Source of the DNA: Oscillospiraceae bacterium
GTDB taxonomy: Bacteria; Bacillota; Clostridia; Oscillospirales; Oscillospiraceae
DNA length: 64,000 bases
Assembly (NCBI GenBank): GCA_009777235.1
Contig: WRMH01000009.1
Coordinates: forward strand, 25,057-89,056
Direction of reading: 5' to 3'
Numbering within the stretch: the first letter of the stretch is position 1; every line of letters starts with the position of its first letter. Below, one piece after another: positions 8,101-57,007 of this stretch. The position numbers and the translations under genes are program-made. Under the pieces are notes generated by a model. That model saw only the letters and a program-made list of their open reading frames with translations, did no database searches and had not been told where the DNA came from.

Positions 8101-8203
8101 GCAGTCATGAAAATCATTCCGAGAGCGGAGCATGGATGCGGAGCGTCCGATCGTTTGCGCACGGATGACGCAATTGATCGGGGAGGAATGATTTTATGAC
8201 TGC
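8101..8203. repeat. dispersed structured element A, copy 1
   Basis: Terminal inverted arms GCAGTCATgAAAATCATTCC / GGAATGATTTTATGACTGC with two internal stems; related copies at 37491, 41756 and 44766. Confidence 0.85.
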
Positions 8204-13224: not shown

Positions 13225-13259
13225 CTTATAAAGAGAGGGTCTTATGATTTTGGTAAAAC
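13225..13259 (+). repeat. dispersed repeat B, copy B1
   Basis: ACTTATAAAGAGAGGGTCTTATGATTTTGGTAAAA; upstream of HPr gene, same strand. Confidence 0.55.
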
Positions 13260-26019: not shown

Positions 26020-26085
26020 GCACGGTATCGCCATTAAAGCATATCGCCTGTTTATTCTGCTTTCTATATACTCCATTGATTTATT

Positions 26086-26233
26086 AAAATCATAAGACCC
26101 TCGCTTCTATAAGCGGTGGGCTACATTATAGCAAAAATCAGTGGTGAGTACAAGCTCCGATTGATTTTGATAAAACATCACGCGCATCTGCGCGGGTGGC
26201 TTCGCCGAATTCATTTCGGCGAAGGCGATATAT
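26086..26233. repeat. repeat pair C, locus 1 (includes repeat B copy B2)
   Basis: AAAATCATAAGACCCTCGCTTCT (26086-26108) and CATTTCGGCGAAGGCGATATATT (26211-26233); both 23-mers recur exactly at 56934 and 56985. Confidence 0.85.
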
Positions 26234-26511: not shown

Positions 26512-29500
26512 ATGAGCACAAAAAAAATAATCTGCGCCTTACTTTGTGCTGTTTTCTTATCATCGCTGTTTTCAGGCTGCCAAACCTCAGTCCCGGAACC
26601 GCCGCCGGAGGCTCTGCTTTCTTCATACCGCGACATACCCGGCATAACGCAAACAGAAATTGACGCCATCGAAGCATATCAAAAAGATAACGCTTCCTTT
26701 ACGCTGATAGCGCCAAACAGCACCGAGCTATACACAGACAATACAGGAGAGCTTCGCGGCTACACGGTTTTGCTCTGCCAGTATCTGTCGTCGCTTTTTG
26801 AAATACCCTTTACGCCGCAGATGGAAGCGCTCGGCATTATCACGCAGTCTCTCGACGACGGCGACGCCATCTTTGCTCTATCGGTCATCAGCGACGATCG
26901 CGCAGAGCGTTATTTTATGACAGACACCGTTGCGCAGCGTTCGGTCAAAACCATGCGCCTTTCGGAAAACCCCGCCCCCTCTGACATAGCCCAGTCAAGG
27001 CCACCGCGCTACGTTCTGCTCACGGGCGCGATGATGATAGATTTATTTCCCGAAATATTAGAGCCCGGTTCATACGAAATGCTTATTGCCGAAGACTATG
27101 AGATGGCCTACAGGATGCTGCAAAGCGGCGAGGCGGACGCCTTTGCCGGAAACAGCGCGATGGAGATCGCCTTTGACGTTTACGGCGGCGTAGTCACCGA
27201 CGACTTCTTCCCCCTCACCTTTCTGCCCGTATCCATCGCGACGGGAAACCAAAATTTTGCGCCAATTATCTCCGCGATTGACAAAGCCCTGCAAGGCGGT
27301 TTGCATAGCCATCTGACCGAACTTTACGCACGGGGCTACTCCGACTACCGCAAGTACAGATTTAATGAATTTTTGACCGACGAGGAAAGGTCGTATTTGA
27401 GGGATAACCCCACAATACCTTTCGCTTCCCAATATATGTCCTATCCCGTGAGCTTCTACAATACGGTAGAAGAACGCTGGGATGGTGGGGTTTTTGATGT
27501 ACTTAGCGAAATGCAGCAGCTCTTCGGCGTCGTTTTTGAGCTTGTAAACGACACCGGCGCGGAGCTTTTAGAGCTAATGAATCTTTTAGAGGACGGAACG
27601 GCGTATTTCATGCCAAACCTAATCTCAAGCCCCGAACGCGCACCACGTTTTCTATGGCCGGACACTTTGTACATAAAGGACAGGTTCGCCCTATTATCCA
27701 AGCAGAGCTACCCAAATATCTCGACAAACGACATTCCCTTTGAGAAAATCGGGTTTGCCAGAGGCAGCGCCTTTGCCGATATGTTCAGAAGCTGGTTTCC
27801 CAACGCCATATCCGCAACGGAATACCCCAACACCGACGAGGCTTTCGCGGCCTTGGACCGGGGCGAGGTCAACCTTGTTATGTCGAGCCAGTCAAGGCTT
27901 GCCTCCTTGACCAACTATTATGAATATTCCGATTATAAGGCAAATTACCTCTTTGACGCAGCCTTTGAATCCACCTTTGGGGTAAACAAAGACCAGCAAG
28001 TTCTCGTTTCCATCATTGACAAGGCGCTTAAATTTATTGATACCGACAGAATTTTTGAGCAATGGAACACCAGAACCTTTGACTATCAGGCGAGAGCTTT
28101 AAGAGACAGAGAGGCTTTGATCTTTGCCCTATACACCACGGGAATGATCGCGCTCGCGCTGATAGTCTGCATCCTTTTGATCATGTTTTTAAAGAGCAGA
28201 AGAAACGCTAAAGTGATTACGGCGCAGGCTCTCACATTAGAATCCGCAAACGCGAGAATTGAAGCTATCGTCAAAAATATTCCCGGCATGGTTTTTCGGC
28301 ACATCTATGATCCTCCGAATTTTAGCTGCCTGTTTGTCAGCGACGGCTGCCGCGATCTCACAGGGTATGAACCGGAAGATATGCTAAAAGGAAAGATCAA
28401 GTTTTATGACTTTATTCATCCTGACGATATGCCAACCGTCATAAGTTTAAGTTCCGAAACACTTGAAAATGGTCTGCCCTATGAAAATACATTTAGAATC
28501 ACGACCCGCGGCGGCACGGAAAAATGGGTTTGGGAGCGCAGCCGCGTAGTAGAGAAAAACCAAGACGGCACGCCGCATATCATAGAGGGCTATCAGACGG
28601 ATGTGACCGAACGGGTAAAACTCGAAACCGCGGAGCTTGCGAGTCGCGCAAAATCAGACTTTTTGGCGACGATGAGCCACGAAATCAGAACGCCGATGAA
28701 CTCTATAATGGGCTTTGCGGAGCTTGCCGCCGACTGCGAGGCGATGCCGCAGATCAAAGATTATTTACGCAAAATCAGCGACGGCACAAAATGGCTTCTA
28801 AACATCATAAATGATATACTTGATATTTCCAAGATAGAAGCCGGGAAAATGGAATTTGAGAAGATATCTTTCAGCCTGAGCGAGGTTTTCTCGCGCTGTC
28901 AGTCTGTCATTTTACCGCCCATCAAAGAAAAAGGGCTTGACCTGCGCGTCTATGCCGAGGCGATAACCAACAAGCAGCTCATCGGAGACCCCTTGCGGCT
29001 ATACCAGATACTGATGAACCTTTTGTCAAACGCCGTGAAGTTTACAAGTGCCGGAACGGTCAAACTTTCCGCGCTTATTAAAAAAGAGAGCGCAGGCAAA
29101 GCCGCGATACATTTTGAAGTGTCCGACACGGGTATCGGCATGAGCGCGGAGCAGATAGAGAAGATTTTTGACAAGTTTGTCCAAGCCGATTCAAGCACAA
29201 CGCGCAACTACGGCGGCACGGGGCTCGGGCTTGCGATAGTACGCAATATGGTAGACCTCATGGGCGGAACGCTGACGGTAGAGTCCTCGCCCGGCGCCGG
29301 CAGTAAGTTTTGCTTTGAGATTACATTTGATACAGTGGATTCGTATTCGAAATCATCTAACCGCAAAGATTTTGCCCCGTTCGAAAAACCATGCTTTGAC
29401 GCTAAGATTTTGATTTGCGACGACAACCCCATGAACCAAGAAGTAGTCTGCGAGCATCTTTCCCGCGTGGGGGTACGGACAGTCGTAGCAAATAACGGCA

Positions 29501-30342
29501 AGGCGGGCGTTGAAACGGTTCTTAAATGTATCGAAAAGGGCGAAGCTCCGTTTGATTTGATTTTGATGGATATATTCATGCCCATAATGGACGGTATCGA
29601 AGCGGCGACGAAAATATCCGAGCTCAATACCGGCACTCCCATAGTCGCGATGACCGCAAATATAATGACCAGCGAGCTTGAAAAATACAAAAAGCATAAT
29701 ATGCCCGACTGCTTGGGCAAGCCTTTCACGGCGCAGGAGCTATGGCGCGTTTTATTAAAATACCTCACACCCATAGGCTCTTCTGTCGTAGCCGAGGACG
29801 ACGATGTGAATGAGGAGATTTTAAACAACCTGCGTGTCAATTTTGTAAAAAGCAACCAAACAGTCCATACCGACATAAAAAACGCGGTCGCCTCCGGAGA
29901 TATAACGCTCGCGCACCGCTTGGCGCACACACTAAAAGGAAGTGCCGGAATAATCGGCAAGGACGATCTGAAAAATGCCGCCGCCGAGGTCGAGGCGCTT
30001 TTGAAAAACGAGATCGATTCGATTTTAAGCAGCAAAATAAATCTGCTCGAAACAGAGCTGTCTGCGGTGCTCGGCGAGCTGGAATCGCTCCCGGACGGCT
30101 CGGCAGCAGATATCATGCCGCAAGCGCCAGAGCCTATGAGCGTAGAGCAGAGCTTGGCGCTGCTCTTACAATTAGAGCCCATGCTCGAGCAGTCAAATCC
30201 GCAGTGCGTAGAGCTGCTGGAAGAGCTTTTAAAGATTCCCGGATCGGAAAAGCTCGCGGAGCAAATAGAATCCTACGAGTTTGAATCCGCGCTGGAGATT
30301 CTTTTTGTGATAAAAAAGAAATTAAAGGAAGACAATTTATGA
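26512..30342 (+). CDS. hybrid sensor kinase HK1: lipobox-like N-terminus, two SBP_bac_3-like domains, TM, PAS, HisKA, HATPase, REC, Hpt, C-terminal helical tail
   Basis: LFSGCQTS lipobox; FLATMSHEIRTPMNSIMGF; GGTGLGLAIV; LILMDIFMPIMDG; HTLKGSAG. Confidence 0.93.
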   Translation: MSTKKIICALLCAVFLSSLFSGCQTSVPEPPPEALLSSYRDIPGITQTEIDAIEAYQKDNASFTLIAPNSTELYTDNTGELRGYTVLLCQYLSSLFEIPFTPQMEALGIITQSLDDGDAIFALSVISDDRAERYFMTDTVAQRSVKTMRLSENPAPSDIAQSRPPRYVLLTGAMMIDLFPEILEPGSYEMLIAEDYEMAYRMLQSGEADAFAGNSAMEIAFDVYGGVVTDDFFPLTFLPVSIATGNQNFAPIISAIDKALQGGLHSHLTELYARGYSDYRKYRFNEFLTDEERSYLRDNPTIPFASQYMSYPVSFYNTVEERWDGGVFDVLSEMQQLFGVVFELVNDTGAELLELMNLLEDGTAYFMPNLISSPERAPRFLWPDTLYIKDRFALLSKQSYPNISTNDIPFEKIGFARGSAFADMFRSWFPNAISATEYPNTDEAFAALDRGEVNLVMSSQSRLASLTNYYEYSDYKANYLFDAAFESTFGVNKDQQVLVSIIDKALKFIDTDRIFEQWNTRTFDYQARALRDREALIFALYTTGMIALALIVCILLIMFLKSRRNAKVITAQALTLESANARIEAIVKNIPGMVFRHIYDPPNFSCLFVSDGCRDLTGYEPEDMLKGKIKFYDFIHPDDMPTVISLSSETLENGLPYENTFRITTRGGTEKWVWERSRVVEKNQDGTPHIIEGYQTDVTERVKLETAELASRAKSDFLATMSHEIRTPMNSIMGFAELAADCEAMPQIKDYLRKISDGTKWLLNIINDILDISKIEAGKMEFEKISFSLSEVFSRCQSVILPPIKEKGLDLRVYAEAITNKQLIGDPLRLYQILMNLLSNAVKFTSAGTVKLSALIKKESAGKAAIHFEVSDTGIGMSAEQIEKIFDKFVQADSSTTRNYGGTGLGLAIVRNMVDLMGGTLTVESSPGAGSKFCFEITFDTVDSYSKSSNRKDFAPFEKPCFDAKILICDDNPMNQEVVCEHLSRVGVRTVVANNGKAGVETVLKCIEKGEAPFDLILMDIFMPIMDGIEAATKISELNTGTPIVAMTANIMTSELEKYKKHNMPDCLGKPFTAQELWRVLLKYLTPIGSSVVAEDDDVNEEILNNLRVNFVKSNQTVHTDIKNAVASGDITLAHRLAHTLKGSAGIIGKDDLKNAAAEVEALLKNEIDSILSSKINLLETELSAVLGELESLPDGSAADIMPQAPEPMSVEQSLALLLQLEPMLEQSNPQCVELLEELLKIPGSEKLAEQIESYEFESALEILFVIKKKLKEDNL

Positions 30343-30447
30343 AGTGTCTCCTACGGAGCCACATTAAATTTCAAACAGCGTTGGTCTTTCTCACTGCAAA
30401 GGCCATATACATAAGCCTTCACGAACCGGAAAGGATTGTATAAATTT

Positions 30448-33400
30448 ATGAGCAAATCCGCAAAAAACAGCATACTCATTGTCGGCGGCGAAAGTTCCGA
30501 TGTTTCATCTCTTTTTCAGTTTTTAAGCCCCGTCTATACCGTCTACACAGAAAAAAGCGGGGCGGACGCCCTTAAATCCGCGCAAAAGCATCTGCCCGAC
30601 GTAGTTTTGCTCTGCACTGTCTTACCCGATACCTGCGGATATGCCATACTCGCCGCGCTGAAGGCATCCGAAAGGACGCGGGATATACCCGTCATCCTCA
30701 CATCGGTCTGCTCAGCGTCTACTGACGTAGCCGCAGCGTCTGCTGTAACAGCTACAGCGGACGCAAGACGTGAGGAAATAAAAGCCCTGACCTTGGGGGC
30801 GGCGGACTATATTACCCATCCGTTTGACTTAGAATTCGTAAGGCTGCGAGTACAAAAGCAGATAGACGCGCTAAAAAAACTTCGCACGGCAAAAAACGAA
30901 ACTTTAAACTTTCGCTTAGCGAGCGAGGGTATGAAAATCGCGCTGTGGACTATGGACGTTGTCACCGACGACCCAGTCAACCCGACCAACAGATTCATGT
31001 GGTCACAGGAATTTCGCCATATGCTGGGCTTTTCTGACGAAAACGATTTTCCAAACGTGCTCGGAAGCTGGATTACCCGCCTGCACCCCGACGACAAAGA
31101 AAAAAGCATTGCGGCCTTTGCCGCGCACATGAACGACTACACCGGAAAAACGCCCTATGAAATAGAATACAGATTAAAGGGCAAGGACGGCGTATACCGG
31201 CATTATGACGGGATAGGCACTTCCTTGCGGACGCCGCAGGGTGTTCCTCTTCGGGTATCGGGATATATCAGGGACATTACCGAAAAAAAGCTGATAGCGG
31301 AGGCTCTTGATAAACATGAGCAGCTTTTGCGTGCGGTAAACCAAGCCGCGGGTCTTCTGCTGACGGATGCGGACGAAAAACCTTTCAACGATTTGATTTT
31401 TGACAGCATTAAGCTCATCGGCCAATGCGTCGGCGCGGACAGCATAGAGGTATGGCAGAACGAAACCTGCGACGGGGAGCTAAACGCCGTTTTAAAGCAC
31501 CACTGGAGCTCTGACGCATACGCGGGTTCTTTATCCGAGCTGCCTGTTTCAAGATTTGCTTATAAAAATACGGATCGCTGGGAAGAGCGGCTGTCAGGCG
31601 GGGATTTTATACAAGGGCCCGTGTCCCGCCTCTCTCCCGAGGATCAAGCGTTTTTGAAGGTTTTTAATATAAAGACCGTTCTGGTCATACCCATATCCAT
31701 TCAAAATAAGTTTTGGGGATTTTCCTGCATTGACGATTACCGCTTTGAGCGCGACTTTACAAAAGACGAGACCGCCATACTTCATTCCGTGATTTCCATG
31801 ATAGCAAACGCAATAAATCGCAATGCTTTGGCCGCGGCGATAAGCCGCGCCGAAATCGCCGAAGAGAGCAGCAAGGCAAAAAGCAGATTTTTGGCGGTGA
31901 TGAGCCATGAGATCAGAACTCCCATGAACTCTATCATGGGCTTTGCGGAGCTGGCGCTTGACACGCTCTCGGGTACTAAAGAGCAGCAAGTCAAGGACTA
32001 CTTGGATAAAATCAAAAGCAGCACAAAATGGCTGCTCAACATAGTTGACGATATTTTGGATATATCCAAAATAGAATCGAGCAAAATGTCTTTTGAATAT
32101 ATGCCCTTTGATTTGAGCGGCATAATAGCGCACTGCGAGTCTGTAATGATACCGATTGTCAGAGAAAAGAACCTTTCTTTCAAAATTGACCGCGGGCCGC
32201 CGCTCGGCAAAAAGCTGCTCGGCGACTCCGTGCGGCTCTCTCAGGTGCTGATGAACCTGCTCTCTAACGCCGTAAAATTTACAAATTCCGGCGAGGTCAA
32301 TCTATCGTTAAAAATTAAAAGCCCGGACGATAAGAGCGCGGCGGTGTATTTTGAAATAAGCGACACAGGGATAGGCATGAGCCCCCAGCAGCTTGATAAG
32401 ATATTCGACCCCTTTATACAGGCCGATTCCGGCACGACCCGCAACTACGGCGGCACGGGCTTAGGGCTTGCCATTACAAAAAATATAGTGGAAATGATGG
32501 GCGGCGAGCTCAAAGTAAAAAGCCAAAAAGATGTCGGAAGCACCTTTTCTTTCGAGATAACTTTCGATCTGGCAAGCGCATCCGAGTCTCTGGCAAGCGG
32601 GGCTGCGCCTGACGTCGTCAAAAAACCGCGTTTTGACGGCCTTGTGCTTGTTTTTGACGACAACGCACTAAATCAACAGGTTATCTGCGAGCATCTTTCG
32701 AGCGTCGGGCTTCAAACTGTGGTAGCCGAAAACGGGCAGATAGGCGTAGATTTGGTCAAAGAACGCATAGAAAATAAAAAAGCGCCGTTTGATTTGATAT
32801 TTATGGATATGTTTATGCCCGTCATGGACGGCATGGAAGCCGCGTCAAAAATAAACGCCCTGAATATAAAGACCCCCATCGTGGCTATGACCGCAAACAT
32901 TATGGCAGACGAGCTTGAAAAATACAAAAACAACGGGATGCCTGACTGCTTGGGCAAGCCCTTTACGTCGCAGCAGCTATGGCGCGTGCTCTTAAAATAT
33001 CTTAAACCCATAAGCTCTGATGCCGGGCAAGGAGCAAGCGCCGAGCAGGAGTCGGAGATTTCCTCTTTTGAAGATGAGCTGCAATTAAAATTGATGGTCA
33101 ATTTTCTCAAAAGCAACCGGGACACATACGCAAAGATAACGCAGGCTGTCGCCGACGGAGACATAACGCTGGCTCATCGCTTGGCGCATACGCTAAAAGG
33201 CAACGCGGGTCAGATAGGCAAGACGGGACTTAAAGACGCGGCGGCGGATGTTGAGACCCTTTTGAAAAACGCGGGTGAAAGGCGCGCGAAGTCACAGGCA
33301 GGTCGGGCGGCAAATGCTATGCCGGCGCCGCAGGCCGGGTCGTCTTTCATATTCGAAAACAAGATGACCACACTCGGCGTCGAACTGGCGGCGGTGTTGG

Positions 33401-33642
33401 ATGAGCTCCGGCCGCTTCTTGACAAAACGCAAAAAACCGCCCCGCCGCTCGGCAATGACGAGATAAAAGAATTGTTTGAAAAACTTGAGCCCATGCTTGA
33501 CAATATCAACCCCGAGTGCGTAAATTTTCTCGACAGGCTAAAGTCCGTCCCGGGCGCGGAGGAGCTTGCTTCGCAAATAGAAAATTATGATTTTGAAACA
33601 GCGGCGGGTACGCTTGCGAAGTTGAAAAAGCAATGGCGTTAA
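30448..33642 (+). CDS. hybrid sensor kinase HK2: degenerate N-terminal receiver, PAS, GAF, HisKA, HATPase, REC, Hpt, C-terminal helical tail
   Basis: FLAVMSHEIRTPMNSIMGF; LIFMDMFMPVMDG; HTLKGNAG; N-terminal VVLLCTVLPDTCGY lacks the phospho-Asp. Confidence 0.93.
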   Translation: MSKSAKNSILIVGGESSDVSSLFQFLSPVYTVYTEKSGADALKSAQKHLPDVVLLCTVLPDTCGYAILAALKASERTRDIPVILTSVCSASTDVAAASAVTATADARREEIKALTLGAADYITHPFDLEFVRLRVQKQIDALKKLRTAKNETLNFRLASEGMKIALWTMDVVTDDPVNPTNRFMWSQEFRHMLGFSDENDFPNVLGSWITRLHPDDKEKSIAAFAAHMNDYTGKTPYEIEYRLKGKDGVYRHYDGIGTSLRTPQGVPLRVSGYIRDITEKKLIAEALDKHEQLLRAVNQAAGLLLTDADEKPFNDLIFDSIKLIGQCVGADSIEVWQNETCDGELNAVLKHHWSSDAYAGSLSELPVSRFAYKNTDRWEERLSGGDFIQGPVSRLSPEDQAFLKVFNIKTVLVIPISIQNKFWGFSCIDDYRFERDFTKDETAILHSVISMIANAINRNALAAAISRAEIAEESSKAKSRFLAVMSHEIRTPMNSIMGFAELALDTLSGTKEQQVKDYLDKIKSSTKWLLNIVDDILDISKIESSKMSFEYMPFDLSGIIAHCESVMIPIVREKNLSFKIDRGPPLGKKLLGDSVRLSQVLMNLLSNAVKFTNSGEVNLSLKIKSPDDKSAAVYFEISDTGIGMSPQQLDKIFDPFIQADSGTTRNYGGTGLGLAITKNIVEMMGGELKVKSQKDVGSTFSFEITFDLASASESLASGAAPDVVKKPRFDGLVLVFDDNALNQQVICEHLSSVGLQTVVAENGQIGVDLVKERIENKKAPFDLIFMDMFMPVMDGMEAASKINALNIKTPIVAMTANIMADELEKYKNNGMPDCLGKPFTSQQLWRVLLKYLKPISSDAGQGASAEQESEISSFEDELQLKLMVNFLKSNRDTYAKITQAVADGDITLAHRLAHTLKGNAGQIGKTGLKDAAADVETLLKNAGERRAKSQAGRAANAMPAPQAGSSFIFENKMTTLGVELAAVLDELRPLLDKTQKTAPPLGNDEIKELFEKLEPMLDNINPECVNFLDRLKSVPGAEELASQIENYDFETAAGTLAKLKKQWR

Positions 33643-33663
33643 CCTCGCAATGCAACTGCCCGC

Positions 33664-33698
33664 ATAGAGAGACTGTTGACTTATGATTTTGTTAAACC
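33664..33698 (+). repeat. dispersed repeat B, copy B3
   Basis: ATAGAGAGACTGTTGACTTATGATTTTGTTAAACC upstream of the HD-GYP gene. Confidence 0.55.
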
Positions 33699-33741
33699 CT
33701 CTAAACTCTCAACGAGGCGCGGTGAAAGGAGCACAGCACGC

Positions 33742-34779
33742 ATGAAAACCATTTTTATTGTTGATGACAACGAATCCAACCTATTTTCGGCAAAAACCGC
33801 GCTCGAAGGCATATATAAAACATATGCTTTGCTCTCTGCCGAGCGAATGTTCAAAATGGCGGAGAGGATCATACCCGACCTTATTTTGCTTGATATTGAA
33901 ATGCCCGATATGAACGGTTTTGAAGCCCTGCGGATATTAAAATCGGACGAGCGCTGGAAATCAATCCCCGTTTTGTTTCTTACTTCAAGAAATGACGCCG
34001 ATGCGGAAATAAACGGATTTGAAATGGGGGCGCTTGATTTTATAAGCAAACCTATCTCACCGCCCCGTCTGATAAAACGCTTAGAAACGCATCTTGAGAC
34101 GGACGCTTTGATAAAGGAAAGTCAAAAAGCCCTGCGTGATATCCATAACGCAACCATAAACGTCATAGCGGATTTGGTGGAAACGAGAGATGAAACAACG
34201 GGCGGGCATATTGAGCGAACATCCGTTTATGTCGAGCTTTTGGTAAACGATCTTCTTCGCACCGGAGTTTACAAGGATGAAATTTCCCTTTGGGACATCA
34301 GTATTCTCCTGCCGTCGGCGCAGCTCCATGATTTGGGCAAAATCGGGATAAGCGATTTGATACTAAACAAACCGGGAAGGCTCACCCCCGAGGAATTTGA
34401 CATAATCCGGCAGCATTGCGAAATAGGACGGCGGGCTATCGATCGAATTATTGAAAAAACAGGCGACGACACATTTTTGCAGCACGCAAAACGGTTTGCG
34501 TCTTATCATCACGAAAAATGGGACGGCTCGGGCTATCCGAGAGGACTTCGCGGAGAGGAAATCCCGCTCGAGGGGCGGATAATGGCCATAGCCGACGTTT
34601 ATGACGCGTTGGTTTCCGAGCGTCCGTATAAAAAACCTTTTACCCATGACGAGGCCGTACATACTATACAAAAGGACAGCGGCACACATTTTGACCCAAA
34701 AATCGTAGAGGCTTTTTTGAATGTAGCGGATGATTTTTGCGCCGAGCTCACGCGAGAGAGCGGGAGCGCGGATATGTGA
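33742..34779 (+). CDS. REC-HD-GYP protein (putative c-di-GMP phosphodiesterase)
   Basis: REC IFIVDDNE...LILLDIEMPDMNGF; HD LHDLGKIGI; HHEKWDGSGYPRGLRGEEIP (HHExxDGxGYP). Confidence 0.95.
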   Translation: MKTIFIVDDNESNLFSAKTALEGIYKTYALLSAERMFKMAERIIPDLILLDIEMPDMNGFEALRILKSDERWKSIPVLFLTSRNDADAEINGFEMGALDFISKPISPPRLIKRLETHLETDALIKESQKALRDIHNATINVIADLVETRDETTGGHIERTSVYVELLVNDLLRTGVYKDEISLWDISILLPSAQLHDLGKIGISDLILNKPGRLTPEEFDIIRQHCEIGRRAIDRIIEKTGDDTFLQHAKRFASYHHEKWDGSGYPRGLRGEEIPLEGRIMAIADVYDALVSERPYKKPFTHDEAVHTIQKDSGTHFDPKIVEAFLNVADDFCAELTRESGSADM

Positions 34780-34814
34780 TGGCAAAGGGTACTTCTAAAG
34801 GAGACTATACGAAT

Positions 34815-37457
34815 ATGGAAAACAGCTTGCCCGAGCAAAATAAAAATGCAAACCCGTCCCGGCGAAAATCATTAAACTTTCGTATGAGGCTGATTCTTGT
34901 CGGCCTGTCGCTTTTTATCGGAATTGTCATGATGATTTTTTTGTCTATTATCTATCAAAACCGCATCGAATCAGAATACACGAACAAAGCGATCATGCTG
35001 TCTAAAATCGCGGCATCCATGATGGACGGCGAAGATATTGACCGCTATCTGCTGACTCTTGAAAAAGACGACGCGTATTACCGCATTTTTCGGCAGCTAC
35101 AGCTTTCACAGCAGGAAAGCGGCGTCACCTATGTCTATATTTCAAGAATAGACGGACTGAATGAAATCATTGTTTTTGACGCTGAGCTTGATTTAGGCTC
35201 TGTCATTTCAATCGCCGATGAGCAGTATGACAACATATTGGCGGCTACGCAAAGCGGAAAACTGATTGAGCCGTATATCTACGATACAAAATGGGGCAGC
35301 CTCTTTACGGCAATCGAGCCGATCTACCGAAAAGACGGCAGCGTGTCCGGCTACGCGAACGCCGCCATTGCCTTAGAGCAAATAATCACAGAACGTATCT
35401 TTATATTTACGCTGCTGGGCGTCATCATCTTGCTGACCTCTCTGGCTTTTGCGACGGCGGGCTTTTACGCTGTTCAAAGAATCGTCCTCTCCCCTGTCCG
35501 CGATCTTACAAACAGCATATCAGCTTATCACCCCGGCGAAACTCTCCCGGATTTGTTCAACCCGGAAAAATCAACGCCAAAAACACATTCAAGCAATGAA
35601 ATTGATATTTTGGAACGCAGCTTAACCCAAATGACAGCGCGGACGGACAAAATGTTTGCCGAGGTAAAGCAGCTTGAAGCCGTAAGGCTTGCCAACCGCG
35701 CAAAATCTGATTTTCTCGCGAGAATGAGCCACGAGATACGCACCCCAATGAACGTAATCGTCGGCATATCTCAAATGCAGCTTCACAAAAACGGACTCTC
35801 ACAGGAAAGCGAGCAGGCGTGGAATCATGTCTATGAAGCGGGAAACAACTTGCTTGCTATAATCAATGATATTTTAGATATGTCAAAAATTGAAACGGGT
35901 AAAATGGCGCTTGAGCTATCGTCATACAGCTTGCCGAGCCTCATAAACGACGTGGTGACGCTAAGTATCGTGCGCATTGGCTCAAAGCCTATCGAATTGC
36001 GGCTTGACATCGCCGAAGACCTACCGCTCAAAATGCGCGGCGACGAGGTGCGGCTTAAGGAGATTTTGACAAACCTTTTATCAAACGCCATAAAATATAC
36101 GGACGCCGGGAGTGTAAAAATATCCGCAAACCACTTTTTGCAAAACGGGGCTTTAATGCTGCGCTTTGTCGTAGAGGACACGGGGCAAGGCATAAAACCG
36201 GAGGATATGCCAAATTTATTTACGGAGTTCATGCGCTTTAACGCATCCACCACGCGCTATATCGAGGGTACGGGGCTTGGCCTTAGCATAACCAAAAGTC
36301 TCGTTGAGATGATGGGCGGTACGATAAAGGCCGAAAGCGAATACGGCGTTGGCAGCAAGTTTACCGTAACTGTCATGCAAGAATCCGTAAACGGTGAGGT
36401 CATCGGAAAAGAACTTTCGAAACGGCTTTCTAATTTCACCTTCAACATAGACAGACGTTTTCAAAACAAACGAATCGTCCGCTACCCCATGCCCTACGGA
36501 AAAGTATTGATAGTTGACGACGTACGCTCAAACCTCTTTGTCGCGCAAGGGCTGCTGCTCCCATATGAACTGCAAATCGAAACCGCCGTCAGCGGATATG
36601 AAGCGATAGAAAAAATCAGCGCGGGCAGCACCTATGACGTTATATTCATGGATCATATGATGCCGCAGATGGATGGGATAGAAACTACAAATAAGCTGCG
36701 CGAAATAGGATATAAAGGCACAATTATCGCGCTGACGGCAAACGCCTTGGTCGGCAACGAAGAGATGTTCATACAAAACGGCTTTGACGACTTTATCCCA
36801 AAGCCCATTGACATACGTCATTTAAACACCGTCTTGAATAAATACGTGCGCGATAAATATCCAAAAGAGGCCGCAAAGTATAAGATGACGTCAAGCGAAG
36901 AGCCGAGCGGCGAAAGCCCCGAAGTTGACCGCAAGCTCTTAGAGTTATTCTTGCGCGATGCACAAAGAGGCGAGGCAAACTTGAAGAAAGCTCTCGCAAA
37001 CGACGATATGAAATTATACATCATCGCCGTACACGCCATGAAGTCCGCTCTCGCCAACATCTCAAAAGACGAGCTTTCCAAGTCCGCCGCCGCTTTGGAA
37101 AACGCCGGGAGAACGGGCGATACGGCGTTTATCAAAGCTAACCACGAAAACTTTATGACCTCACTAAGAGCGCTGATAGACAGTTTGACCGCACTCGGGG
37201 ATGCAAGTGACGGCGGTGCGGCCATTGATACGCAAATACAGGAAGATACGCCCTTCTTATCAAAAGAGCTGCTTGTCATAAAAAAAGCCTGTGAGGATTA
37301 CGACGACGCGGCGGCATTCACGGCGCTCGGCAGGCTGAGGGAAAAACAATGGAAGCGGGAAACTTCCGCCGCCTTGAAAGAAATTTACGACATCTTGTTT
37401 ATAGACAGCAATTTTGAAAACGCCGCAGAGCGGGTAGTCAAATTAATGAAATCATAG
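34815..37457 (+). CDS. hybrid sensor kinase HK3: TM-extracytoplasmic-TM, HAMP-like linker, HisKA, HATPase, REC, Hpt, C-terminal tail
   Basis: FLARMSHEIRTPMNVIVGI; GTGLGLSITKSL; VIFMDHMMPQMDG; Hpt HAMKSALANI. Confidence 0.93.
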   Translation: MENSLPEQNKNANPSRRKSLNFRMRLILVGLSLFIGIVMMIFLSIIYQNRIESEYTNKAIMLSKIAASMMDGEDIDRYLLTLEKDDAYYRIFRQLQLSQQESGVTYVYISRIDGLNEIIVFDAELDLGSVISIADEQYDNILAATQSGKLIEPYIYDTKWGSLFTAIEPIYRKDGSVSGYANAAIALEQIITERIFIFTLLGVIILLTSLAFATAGFYAVQRIVLSPVRDLTNSISAYHPGETLPDLFNPEKSTPKTHSSNEIDILERSLTQMTARTDKMFAEVKQLEAVRLANRAKSDFLARMSHEIRTPMNVIVGISQMQLHKNGLSQESEQAWNHVYEAGNNLLAIINDILDMSKIETGKMALELSSYSLPSLINDVVTLSIVRIGSKPIELRLDIAEDLPLKMRGDEVRLKEILTNLLSNAIKYTDAGSVKISANHFLQNGALMLRFVVEDTGQGIKPEDMPNLFTEFMRFNASTTRYIEGTGLGLSITKSLVEMMGGTIKAESEYGVGSKFTVTVMQESVNGEVIGKELSKRLSNFTFNIDRRFQNKRIVRYPMPYGKVLIVDDVRSNLFVAQGLLLPYELQIETAVSGYEAIEKISAGSTYDVIFMDHMMPQMDGIETTNKLREIGYKGTIIALTANALVGNEEMFIQNGFDDFIPKPIDIRHLNTVLNKYVRDKYPKEAAKYKMTSSEEPSGESPEVDRKLLELFLRDAQRGEANLKKALANDDMKLYIIAVHAMKSALANISKDELSKSAAALENAGRTGDTAFIKANHENFMTSLRALIDSLTALGDASDGGAAIDTQIQEDTPFLSKELLVIKKACEDYDDAAAFTALGRLREKQWKRETSAALKEIYDILFIDSNFENAAERVVKLMKS

Positions 37458-37490
37458 GTAGCGGGCGGCATTAATGTAACCCACCACAAA

Positions 37491-37594
37491 GCGGGCATAA
37501 AATTCATTCCGAGAGCGGAGCATGGACGCGGAGCGTCCGAACCGTCTGCGCAAGGATGACGCAGTGGTTCGGGGAGGAATGATTTTATGACCGC
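37491..37594. repeat. dispersed structured element A, copy 2
   Basis: GCGGgCATAAAAttCATTCC ... GGAATGATTTTATGACCGC; internal GGACGC-GGA-GCGTCC and CCGAACC...GGTTCGG stems. Confidence 0.88.
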
Positions 37595-37628
37595 GAAAGA
37601 ATAGAAGCGCGCTGTCGCCGCCGCAAAA

Positions 37629-38459
37629 CTATTTAAAGACGGAACGGATCATTCGCCGCTTGAGACAATCGCCCAATTGCGCCGCTATTTTCTCACGCAG
37701 CAAAGCCGCGTCTATTGGCTTTAGTATATATTCGCTGATTCCAAGCCCAATGGCGGCATATAAGGCGTCCTTGTTGCTCTCGGATGTCAAGAAAACGATG
37801 GGCGTATCTTCATTTGGCGGGGTATTTCTGATTATTTTTACCAACTCAAATCCGCTCATATTCGGCATATTGCAATCCAACACGAACAAATCAGGCGTCA
37901 CCCTTTTTAAGACCTCCGAAATCGCCTCCGGTCTCGTAAGCGTATATACTTTATACATATCATTTAGCGTCTCATTGAGTGCCTTTAATATACTCGGCGA
38001 ATCATCAACGGCAAGAATGATTGGCTGTTTATCTCCATAGCTTTCGGGATTAAACTGATAATCAATCCGCTCGAGCAGTTCTTCCTTGGTGATAGGCTTG
38101 AATAAAACATCAACCGCCCCGAGTTCAAACGCTTGAACCACACTTTCTTTATCCCGGTTGCCGGTCAGAAACATAATCGGTATAGCCGCATACCGCTTAT
38201 CACCTTTCAATCTCCTGATGATCTCGTAGCCGTCAACATTCGGCATATTTATATCCAATAATATTAAGTCAATATCCTCCGTTTTCTCAAGGATTTCAAA
38301 TAATATTTCGTCGCTTTGCGCCGGATAGACCTTGTAGTAGTCTTTTAGCCTGTCTTTTAATGATAAGAGCATAAACTGAACGTCGTCAACGCAGATTATC
38401 TTTTTGCGATCATCTTTTTCCGTCTGATTTACCTCTTTGCCAAATTCAGCGCCGCTCAT
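37629..38459 (-). CDS. double-receiver response regulator (REC-REC)
   Basis: KIICVDDV...LILLDINMPNVDGY...FKP and ILAVDDS...LFVLDCNMPNMSGF...LKP. Confidence 0.93.
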   Translation of the reverse strand: MSGAEFGKEVNQTEKDDRKKIICVDDVQFMLLSLKDRLKDYYKVYPAQSDEILFEILEKTEDIDLILLDINMPNVDGYEIIRRLKGDKRYAAIPIMFLTGNRDKESVVQAFELGAVDVLFKPITKEELLERIDYQFNPESYGDKQPIILAVDDSPSILKALNETLNDMYKVYTLTRPEAISEVLKRVTPDLFVLDCNMPNMSGFELVKIIRNTPPNEDTPIVFLTSESNKDALYAAIGLGISEYILKPIDAALLREKIAAQLGDCLKRRMIRSVFK

Positions 38460-38489
38460 AATCGCGCCCTCCTCTTTTACAATTCATAA

Positions 38490-38526
38490 TTTTAACAAAA
38501 TCATACGTCTCCCGCTTCGGCAAGCC
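38490..38526 (-). repeat. dispersed repeat B, copy B4 (overlaps 3' end of HK4 CDS)
   Basis: Minus strand GGCTTGCCGAAGCGGGAGACGTATGATTTTGTTAAAA. Confidence 0.65.
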
Positions 38527-41500
38527 TCTTTGCCATTTGCTCATAGTTTATCAAATCGGCATTTTCCCTAAGCCAGTCCGTCAAACCCTCGTCATTTTCG
38601 TACTCGTATTTTTCTATCTCCGCCATAGCCTTATCCACGCCGTCCATGTCATAGCTCTCGCAGGCAGCCAAAAGGCTCTCGAGCAATTTTCCGTCGGGTC
38701 TGTCTTTTTTTTGTTTTACGGCGGCGGCATTTATTTCATGCAGCATACCGTCAATGCCGGAAATCAGCTTCCAAGCCGCGTCAAGAAACGCCGCGTTATG
38801 CCCTTTGATATAGCTCATATCGCCGGATTTTGCCGCCATTTCGAGAGATTTCGCCGCGTCGCCGACATTATCCGCAAAAATATCATAGCTTGCGCCTTTT
38901 ATACCGTGAACGGTGATCTCATACCGCTTTATGTCAAACCCATCCGGGGCTTTTCCCGGCTCCTCCCCTGCCGTTGGCACAGTGTCCATTGAGCTTAGCA
39001 TGGCGCGGACGCTTGCCGCGTATGAGCGCAATATCTTTAAATATGACTCCTCGTCGCCGTTATATCGCTCCAGCCCCTTTACAATGTCTATCCCCGCGAC
39101 TGTTCTGTCCGCGATTTTTGTTTGCTCCGGGTTTTCGCATATTTGCCCGAGCGTTGTTGCCGTATCATCTTGCGTGACCTCGCCGGCGTGCGCATCGTGT
39201 ATATAATGATTTAAGATACTGTTCAAACGCCGTATATCTATGGGTTTTGAAACGAATGCGTTAAAGCCGTTTTTTAGGAACATATCCGCCTGACCGACAA
39301 GCGCGTTTGCGGTCAAAGCGACTATGGGACGGTCATATCCCATTTTGCGCAAGATTTGAACCGCTTCGATTCCGTCCATTTCCGGCATCATGTGATCCAT
39401 AAAGATTATGTCATATACGCCGCCGTTTTTGACTTTTTCGATAGCCTCCGCTCCGCTCATAACTGCGCTGATTTTCAGACCGTAAGGCTTCATAAGGCCC
39501 TCTGCGACATATATGTTGGACTCCACGTCATCTACGACCAAAACGCTGCCATAGGGCATATGATGGCGGATAATCTGCGAATTTTTTATCCCTTTTGGAT
39601 AATTTGCCTGATCAAACTGATGATAGTTTCGCATCTCATCGCTCAATTTCCTGCCTATCACGCCATCGCCCACGACAGCTTGCGGAATATGCACGGTAAA
39701 GACGGAACCTTTGTCCGGCTCGCTTTTTACCTTGATCTCGCCGCCCATAAGGTGAAGCAATTGCTTAGTGATCGCCATGCCCAGCCCGACACCCTCAATA
39801 GTGCGGATGCTCTCTTGGTTAAATCGCGAATACTCGTCAAAAAGCCTGTCAAGCTGCTCTTTTGTCATGCCGCGCCCCGTGTCGCTCACTCGGAGTACGA
39901 GCATCCCGCCTCCCTTTTTGTCCCCGCCGCTTCCTTTATCCTTATCGTATTTAAAAGAAACCGCCACGGCGACATTTCCGGCATCCGTATATTTAAAAGC
40001 ATTGGAAAGCAGGTTGTTTAGTATTTGCTTTATACGCATTTCATCGCCGCACAGCTCCGCCGGGGTGTTTTCATCAATTGAAACATCAAGCTCTATATCT
40101 TTGTCGCCGCGCCGCATGAGGTTTAACGCTATCGCGTCATTGAGCAAGGATGCGACGTCGTACGCAATCGGCCTGATTTCTAATTTTCCGGCTTCTATTT
40201 TGGATAAATCCAAAATGTCATTGATTATGCCAAGCAGCAGGCCGCAAGCGTTGCGTATCCTGCTTAAATCTTCCATTGTCTTTTCGGGAAGCTCTTCGTC
40301 TTGCATAAGAATCTCGATAATGCCCCAGATCGCGTTCATCGGCGTTCGTATCTCATGGCTCATGTTCGCTAAAAACGTGGATTTGGCGCGGCTTTGCATC
40401 TCGGCTTCCGTTTGCTGCTTTGTGAGCCTTAGTATATTGGTTATATCCTGTATGATTTCTACATATCCGGCGACTTCCCCCGCCTTGTCAATAAGCCTTT
40501 CGACGTCACTTTGATAAGACAAACCGTTATGCTCAAAGAAGGTCTGCTTTAATGTATGCTTTGCGCAGGACGCTCCGCATTTTTCGTTGCCGCACGCGCC
40601 GATTTTATACTCGCCGCACGCTTTGCCCAGCACTTTATCAACCTGTTCTCCCAAAAACCTTTCGACGGCTTTGTTGACAAATGTAAATTTCAGGTTCTCA
40701 TCGGTAACGATAAGCGGCAATGAAACGGCGTCAAGGATAGATTTGTACCAATGGGCATCATTTTCGATTTTCTCTACAAATTCGGCTATTTTACTTTCCG
40801 CTTGCTTTTTGTCGTTAATATCTAAGAGCGCTCCGGCAACCCTGATTGGGACACCGTCTCTGTCCCTAAAGGTAGTGCCCATCGCGTGAAAATACCTGTA
40901 GCTGCCGTTTTTTTGCATCATCCTGTATTCGATATCAAATGGCGTCATCCCCGTATAGTCATTCAAATGCGCCGCAAAAGCGTCAAACGCCATTTGCCTG
41001 TCTTCGGGATGCACCCGCTCGCCCCAGCTTCCGAGCACGTTCGGAAAATCATGCTCGTCAGAAAAGCCCAGCATATGCCGAAATTCCTGTGACCAGATGA
41101 ACCTGTTGCCCGGATTTACCGGGTCGGTGCTCACGACGTCCATATCCCATAGCCCGACGCCAAGCGCGTCATTTGAGAGTTTATATTTCATAATGTCGTA
41201 TTCATTTGTGATAAACTGCTCGATCAGTTTTATTTGGTTTAAAACCCTAAGTTTGACGAGAGCCGGGGAAAACGGCTTGATGAGATAATCCGCCGCGCCC
41301 AGTGCCAAGCCTTTTTCTTCATCATCGGGATCGCTAAGGCCGGTGATAAAAATAACGGGGATATTGCTTGTTTTTTCTGACGCCTTTAGCTTTGATATTA
41401 CCTCATATCCGTCCATATCGGGCATGATGATGTCAAGCAATATGAGGTCAGGCAGATATTTCTCCGCCGCGGCAATCGCTTTTCTTCCGCTTTTTGCCGC

Positions 41501-41599
41501 ATAGACGGTATAATCGGCGCTGAGTATATGCGTGAGATTTAGTATATTTAAGTTTTCATCATCTACGACAAGTATTCTATACTTTTGTGCCCCAATCAT
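38501..41599 (-). CDS. hybrid sensor kinase HK4: REC, PAS, PAS, HisKA, HATPase, REC, Hpt-like region, C-terminal tail
   Basis: YRILVVDDEN...LILLDIIMPDMDGY; FLANMSHEIRTPMNAIWGI; VIFMDHMMPEMDG; Hpt-like HGIKGASYDI. Confidence 0.93.
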   Translation of the reverse strand: MIGAQKYRILVVDDENLNILNLTHILSADYTVYAAKSGRKAIAAAEKYLPDLILLDIIMPDMDGYEVISKLKASEKTSNIPVIFITGLSDPDDEEKGLALGAADYLIKPFSPALVKLRVLNQIKLIEQFITNEYDIMKYKLSNDALGVGLWDMDVVSTDPVNPGNRFIWSQEFRHMLGFSDEHDFPNVLGSWGERVHPEDRQMAFDAFAAHLNDYTGMTPFDIEYRMMQKNGSYRYFHAMGTTFRDRDGVPIRVAGALLDINDKKQAESKIAEFVEKIENDAHWYKSILDAVSLPLIVTDENLKFTFVNKAVERFLGEQVDKVLGKACGEYKIGACGNEKCGASCAKHTLKQTFFEHNGLSYQSDVERLIDKAGEVAGYVEIIQDITNILRLTKQQTEAEMQSRAKSTFLANMSHEIRTPMNAIWGIIEILMQDEELPEKTMEDLSRIRNACGLLLGIINDILDLSKIEAGKLEIRPIAYDVASLLNDAIALNLMRRGDKDIELDVSIDENTPAELCGDEMRIKQILNNLLSNAFKYTDAGNVAVAVSFKYDKDKGSGGDKKGGGMLVLRVSDTGRGMTKEQLDRLFDEYSRFNQESIRTIEGVGLGMAITKQLLHLMGGEIKVKSEPDKGSVFTVHIPQAVVGDGVIGRKLSDEMRNYHQFDQANYPKGIKNSQIIRHHMPYGSVLVVDDVESNIYVAEGLMKPYGLKISAVMSGAEAIEKVKNGGVYDIIFMDHMMPEMDGIEAVQILRKMGYDRPIVALTANALVGQADMFLKNGFNAFVSKPIDIRRLNSILNHYIHDAHAGEVTQDDTATTLGQICENPEQTKIADRTVAGIDIVKGLERYNGDEESYLKILRSYAASVRAMLSSMDTVPTAGEEPGKAPDGFDIKRYEITVHGIKGASYDIFADNVGDAAKSLEMAAKSGDMSYIKGHNAAFLDAAWKLISGIDGMLHEINAAAVKQKKDRPDGKLLESLLAACESYDMDGVDKAMAEIEKYEYENDEGLTDWLRENADLINYEQMAKRLAEAGDV

Positions 41600-41755
41600 G
41601 ATTTAAAAATAATTCCCCCTCATCGCTTGAAATTCGCCGCGCCTAAAATAATATCATAGTTTCCCGCCGCAAACAAGATTGTTTTATTTTCTGTAAAATT
41701 ACTGTTTTGCGACCAGTATATTGCGACCCGGTGAGGAAGGTTGCATTTTTGACCC

Positions 41756-41836
41756 GTAAGCGGAGCATGGACGCGGAGCGCGCGAGTTAGGCGCATGGAT
41801 GACGCAGTGGTTCGGGGAGGAATGATTTTATGACCG
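41756..41836. repeat. dispersed structured element A, copy 3 (left arm degenerate)
   Basis: AAGCGGAGCATGGACGCGGAGCG...GGATGACGCAGTGGTTCGGGGAGGAATGATTTTATGACCG. Confidence 0.8.
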
Positions 41837-41850
41837 TGAGTAACGTGAAT

Positions 41851-41886
41851 AAATAGAAGTGGGGGAATTATGATTTTGTTAAAATT
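41851..41886 (+). repeat. dispersed repeat B, copy B5
   Basis: AAATAGAAGTGGGGGAATTATGATTTTGTTAAAATT upstream of the BMP lipoprotein gene. Confidence 0.6.
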
Positions 41887-44765: not shown

Positions 44766-44822
44766 TTCATAAAATTCATTCCGAGAGCGAAGCATGGATG
44801 CGAAGCGTCCGAACCATCTGCT
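44766..44822. repeat. element A, copy 4 (3' half missing, abuts repeat B6)
   Basis: TTCATAAAATTCATTCCGAGAGCGAAGCATGGATGCGAAGCGTCCGAACCATCTGCTG. Confidence 0.75.
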
Positions 44823-44823
44823 G

Positions 44824-44856
44824 ATAGAGGCGTAGGACTTGTGATTTTGTTAAAAT
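44824..44856 (+). repeat. dispersed repeat B, copy B6
   Basis: ATAGAGGCGTAGGACTTGTGATTTTGTTAAAAT upstream of permease gene. Confidence 0.55.
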
Positions 44857-55688: not shown

Positions 55689-55704
55689 TCACCTCACTGA
55701 TAGA

Positions 55705-55740
55705 TTTTGACAAAATCATAAGTCTCCCCTGCTTCTGCAA
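55705..55740 (-). repeat. dispersed repeat B, copy B7
   Basis: Minus strand CCGCTTGCAGAAGCAGGGGAGACTTATGATTTTGTCAA upstream of the YjbQ gene. Confidence 0.65.
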
Positions 55741-56904: not shown

Positions 56905-56933
56905 TTTCTCTCATCCTTTCGGGTATGGTTATC

Positions 56934-57007
56934 AAAATCATAAGACCCTCGCTTCTTCTGCCTCCGGCAGCGTTCGGGTTCGGTCATTTCGGCGAAGGCG
57001 ATATATT
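56934..57007. repeat. repeat pair C, locus 2 (includes repeat B copy B8)
   Basis: Same two exact 23-mers as at 26086/26211, closer together (28 bp apart here versus 102 bp). Confidence 0.85.

Follow-up and report, generated by a model that had tools for sequence, protein, structure and literature searches.

Four copies of a structured repeat

The window, by which we mean the whole 64,000-nt stretch of DNA analysed here, contains four copies of a short repeat, element A, of which copies 1 and 2 are full, copy 3 is a chimera and copy 4 is incomplete (Table 1). Each full copy consists of two complementary arms that enclose a first hairpin of the form GC-GNA-GC(C)[ANGGAN](G)GC-GNA-GC and a second hairpin with the loop ANGGAU. 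An earlier reading of the letters alone (the sequence-only reading) had listed these four related copies; all four were found, and its observation was right but understated. It did not include the pair of ANGGAU loops, the connection with TwoAYGGAY and CsrA, the second subfamily or the chimera. Positions 26512-41599 of the window encode four large hybrid histidine kinases in a row, together with response regulators.

Table 1. Copies of element A and ends of element B in the window
Feature	Position	Strand	Remarks
Copy 1, complete first-subfamily element	8101..8203	+	
Copy 1, closing-stem 5' arm	8101..8120	+	
Copy 1, first hairpin	8125..8144	+	GC-GGA-GC[AUGGAU]GC-GGA-GC, loop 8132-8137
Copy 1, second hairpin	8147..8181	+	CCGATC..GATCGG plus TTGCGC/GACGCAA, loop ACGGAU 8161-8166
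Copy 1, closing-stem 3' arm	8185..8203	+	
Copy 2, complete	37491..37593	+	loops AUGGAC 37522-37527 and AAGGAU 37552-37557
Copy 3, chimera	about 41725..41836	+	left half second-subfamily, right half first-subfamily
Copy 4, first hairpin only, ends thereafter	about 44766..44822	+	in ABC-transporter operon
Element B, right end	41853..41885	+	adjoining copy 3
Element B, right end	44824..44856	+	fused to copy 4
Element B, mostly right ends (with the two above)	13227-13259, 33666-33698	+	
Element B, mostly right ends	26074-26106, 38488-38518, 55698-55728, 56929-56956	-	

The chimeric copy 3 retains both ANGGA loops and has mismatched arms. Its subfamily junction lies at window positions 41795-41800, within or adjoining the ANGGAU loop of the second hairpin, which suggests recombination or template switching at that loop. 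The second subfamily and elements in the congeners G013 and G014 have in common an outer module that is conserved, GGTGAGG..AG / C.GAGCGCAAGG (L082, L086-L089, L091-L093; L124, L164, L172, L178), whereas the arms of the first subfamily change fast. Element B, a second repeat that occurs frequently in the window, measures about 100 bp, with ends TTTAACAAAATCA and a TATAAT in its interior; some copies of element A are fused to it, and at L071 it is found in both states, with element A inside it and without. A third repeat, whose end reads GAGGCAACC, adjoins element A in several copies (L044, L061, L062, L065, L074, L081), attached to one arm at AATGATT, which points to nested insertion. An apparent third arm type (GGTTGCCTC..) proved to be another repeat joined to the arms.

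A fold maintained across species

Copy 1 folds at -48.6 kcal/mol, compared with -30.4 kcal/mol for shuffled sequences (z -4.9; none of 200 shuffles was as good). Over 74 distinct cross-species rows, the nine scored hairpin pairs are 98.5% paired, compared with 70.4% when shuffled (0/500), and their covariation score is 0.684, compared with 0.158 in shuffles and at most 0.134 in slid controls, in an alignment that was fitted to the structure and leans toward it. Despite this fitting, the second hairpin has several positions at which all four Watson-Crick pairs are seen. Compensating change in the internal stem, as the sequence-only reading had proposed, recurs among the copies, where every inner-stem variant is compensated (GATC/GATC, GAACC/GGTTC, GAATC/GATTC, GAGCC/GGCTC). 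The same reading had drawn a second stem, GGACGC-GGA-GCGTCC; this does not hold, and the conserved first hairpin is instead GC-GGA-GC[AUGGAY]GC-GGA-GC.

The long stem that it had drawn from the ends of both full copies is borne out as a closing stem of about 20 bp with a covarying tip. There the change of GCAG/CTGC to GCGG/CCGC does occur as a pair: of the 74 complete copies of the first subfamily, 49 have G-C at pair 2/103, 9 have T-A and 2 have A-T, and 61 are paired there, compared with 47.1 in shuffles (0/1000). Across the arms of 15 families, 18.5 of 20 positions pair when both arms come from one copy, and 14.1 when they come from different copies. Arm covariation in the source genome is confined to the tip (z 2.8 to 4.6 at positions 16-23), and its copies show no complementarity past about 24 pairs, counted from the inner end. 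The outer arms of congeners are site-specific, near-perfect palindromes of 28-35 bp.

In the loops, A-GGA is nearly invariant. In the 74 complete copies, the second-loop N is T in 17, A in 23, C in 28 and G in 6, and varies inside both main stem subtypes, while the A, GGA and T of that loop are invariant; A and GGA are kept in both loops with a single substitution. A free N beside a fixed A-GGA is what a protein site of the ANGGA type would show. Conservation also extends outside the loops, so that another binding partner is possible.

A diverged relative of TwoAYGGAY

Rfam returned no match on the window at the gathering threshold. With an E-value threshold, copy 1 aligns end to end to the TwoAYGGAY RNA (RF01731, clan CL00106) at 16.5 bits, against a gathering cut-off of 43, and the family model found no match in the source genome at E 0.01. 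In congeners the same search found members in seven genomes, two of which reach the cut-off (G010 at 52 bits and G014 at 43 bits), and the congener element L096 aligns over its full length at 36.1 bits (E 1.5e-4). We also built a model, R1, on 16 sequences taken from congeners, from the second subfamily and from Gracilibacter. Window copies 1 to 3 score about 52 bits with it, and most elements of Gracilibacter, Peptococcaceae and Ca. Dichloromethanomonas, where the core is nearly identical, score 43-58 bits. Element A is a diverged relative of TwoAYGGAY; because the window copy falls below the cut-off and two congeners reach it, the homology rests on these intermediates.

In both, a closing stem carries two hairpins whose loops are of the AYGGAY type, with an internal GNA/GNA loop in the first hairpin; both occur in Clostridia, and covariation supports the closing and core stems of element A. 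Element A differs in that its second loop takes any base at N, where the family has Y, and in being inserted and spreading, in about 90 copies. TwoAYGGAY was listed without a function in the original paper (PMC2864571), and its binding of CsrA was predicted in 2015 by Gardner and Eldai in the RMfam paper (PMC4333381). In the open-access papers searched we found no report of TwoAYGGAY as repetitive or mobile. A Gracilibacter MAG (L126, L130, L132, L135, L137) holds several copies, each with its own arms of 15-20 bp and some as inverted pairs. An order-wide search also gave weak model matches (18-28 bits) in 39 other genomes, those inspected looking like noise, and the viral contigs searched for the element A core gave no match.

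Insertion and multiplication

The genome-wide search that the sequence-only reading had called for found 88 copies in the 2.63-Mb genome with a 25-nt core pattern (0 with a reversed-pattern control) and 90 with a covariance model; gathering by pattern biases the set toward conserved cores, and the model search adds only about two. By BLAST, the copies are 90-99% identical. With the covariance model, eight congeners have 65, 44, 40, 37, 31, 28, 13 and 12 copies and ten further ones 0-2 each, so that copy number within the genus spans 0 to 90, counts that are lower bounds since the genomes are draft MAGs with many congener copies at contig ends. Arms are species-specific: multi-copy congeners have the same core between different arms that are still complementary. 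We take the source genome and the congeners G008 and G009 to be of termite-gut origin.

Comparison of orthologous sites, also suggested beforehand, shows filled and empty states. The convergent dac-tmcAL pair, conserved in the genus, is spaced by 145 nt here, with copy 1 between the genes, and by about zero in G007, G010, G009 and G008 and about 45 in G002. At the site of copy 4, genes that lie 147 nt apart here overlap at ATGA in G007, and a third site (the gene pair of L073 versus L115) brings the sites empty in the closest relative to three. These empty sites and the spread in copy number show that element A inserts and multiplies. The sequence-only reading had offered a structured RNA or a hairpin-based mobile element, and the evidence supports both.

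No known IS or MITE family was found that explains the element. Bacterial MITEs and REPINs, including RUP, BOX, Correia and REPIN, are short, non-coding, palindromic, intergenic and of high copy number, as is element A; it differs from them in having no fixed terminal sequence, no clear target-site duplication signal (best z 3.78 versus a permuted 95% level of 3.65) and a core whose RNA fold is conserved among distant Clostridia. Y1 transposases, the only family searched for, are absent from the source genome and were rejected as the mobiliser. Some insertion sites looked shared between species, but we gave this no weight, as the source-genome set had been chosen around elements. Elements also stand at changes of gene order between species (L054/L110, L059/L101/L106, L081/L101) and may mark rearrangement breakpoints, in a sample biased toward elements.

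By a crude ORF caller, the copies in the source genome are nearly all intergenic; most lie at the 3' ends of genes and, where these are in tandem, in sense orientation. Tandem settings hold 33 sense and 8 antisense copies (33/41), while 21 copies lie between convergent genes and 5 between divergent ones; the 19 inside called ORFs lie mostly in short, probably spurious ones, and allowing for these by hand gives a ratio of about 35 to 12. An upstream promoter was rejected as a general feature (2 copies versus 2.8 in shuffles, not above chance). Twelve copies lie behind the TATAAT of element B.

A CsrA-type double hairpin?

What might such an element carry? The source genome encodes a canonical csrA (83.9 bits) downstream of a fliW-like gene, the two forming an operon, and element A presents ANGGA in hairpin loops, as CsrA-binding RNAs do. 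Like the CsrA-sequestering sRNAs of the CsrB/RsmZ type, it displays GGA in hairpin loops, in pairs; those RNAs gather many sites in one molecule, whereas each of the many dispersed copies of element A has two putative ones. As of PMC4333381, Gammaproteobacteria were the only group in which CsrB-type RNAs had been identified.

In Firmicutes, the main known CsrA antagonist is a protein, FliW. The reading we lean towards, with moderate confidence, is that element A is a hairpin-based insertion element built on a CsrA-type double hairpin, a putative portable CsrA site and/or dispersed sponge. It is a non-coding element of about 105 bp encoding a diverged TwoAYGGAY-type RNA, whose palindromic closing stem of about 20 bp carries two hairpins with ANGGA(U/C) hexaloops, the pair arrangement that would be expected for a dimeric protein, and it has spread to about 90 intergenic sites. 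We infer that the copies are transcribed: read-through transcripts of neighbouring genes would carry the double hairpin, which may bind a CsrA dimer and so place single transcripts under CsrA influence, and the whole set could act as a dispersed CsrA sponge, to the presumed benefit of host or element. A bolder version, which we regard as rather doubtful, is a transposable element with a CsrA-decoy cargo that titrates or recruits the host regulator and spreads thereby, either selfish or domesticated as a Firmicutes sponge.

Several observations weigh against a CsrA-type role. The presence of CsrA is untied to copy number: our search found none in G014 (65 copies) and G013 (28), both incomplete genomes, and six element-poor congeners encode it. 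The long congener arms exceed what CsrA binding needs, upstream promoters are not consistent, and the link to TwoAYGGAY has against it the low score of the window copy and the lack of a family match in the source genome. The first of these points, together with the very long, perfect palindromic arms of congeners, the insertion and copy-number pattern and the conservation outside the loops, would also suit a MITE acting purely at the DNA level, its arms and core required either in the form of folded single-stranded DNA or for binding by a mobilising protein, and its RNA fold and CsrA resemblance without function. We consider this unlikely, given the sense-strand bias in tandem settings (33 to 8), the freedom of the loop N beside a fixed A-GGA, as expected of an ANGGA protein site, and the lack of a Y1 transposase in the genome.

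The arms could owe their covariation to palindrome correction, that is, template switching between arms, and not from selection on an RNA stem. The near-perfect, site-specific outer arms of congeners, complementarity that fades outwards and arm covariation limited to the tip within the source genome would all fit, but the invariant ANGGA loops are left unexplained; we think correction less likely than not, though for the arms it may in part coexist with the insertion element carrying a CsrA-type double hairpin. That the copies are old regulatory RNAs of the chromosome, immobile and since lost from relatives, seems very improbable and is mostly refuted already: the near-identity of the core in distant Clostridia would agree with it, and against it stand the zero or overlapping spacing at sites in relatives, the similarity of over 90% within the genome and the fusion with element B.

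Our analysis ties TwoAYGGAY, an orphan structured RNA of unproven function since 2010, to a repeat of about 90 copies. Natural variation from 0 to 90 copies in one genus provides a means to test the CsrA-sponge hypothesis outside Gammaproteobacteria. Each insertion may set a CsrA-type binding site beside a gene, which suggests a route by which a genome could gain many post-transcriptional regulatory sites at once.
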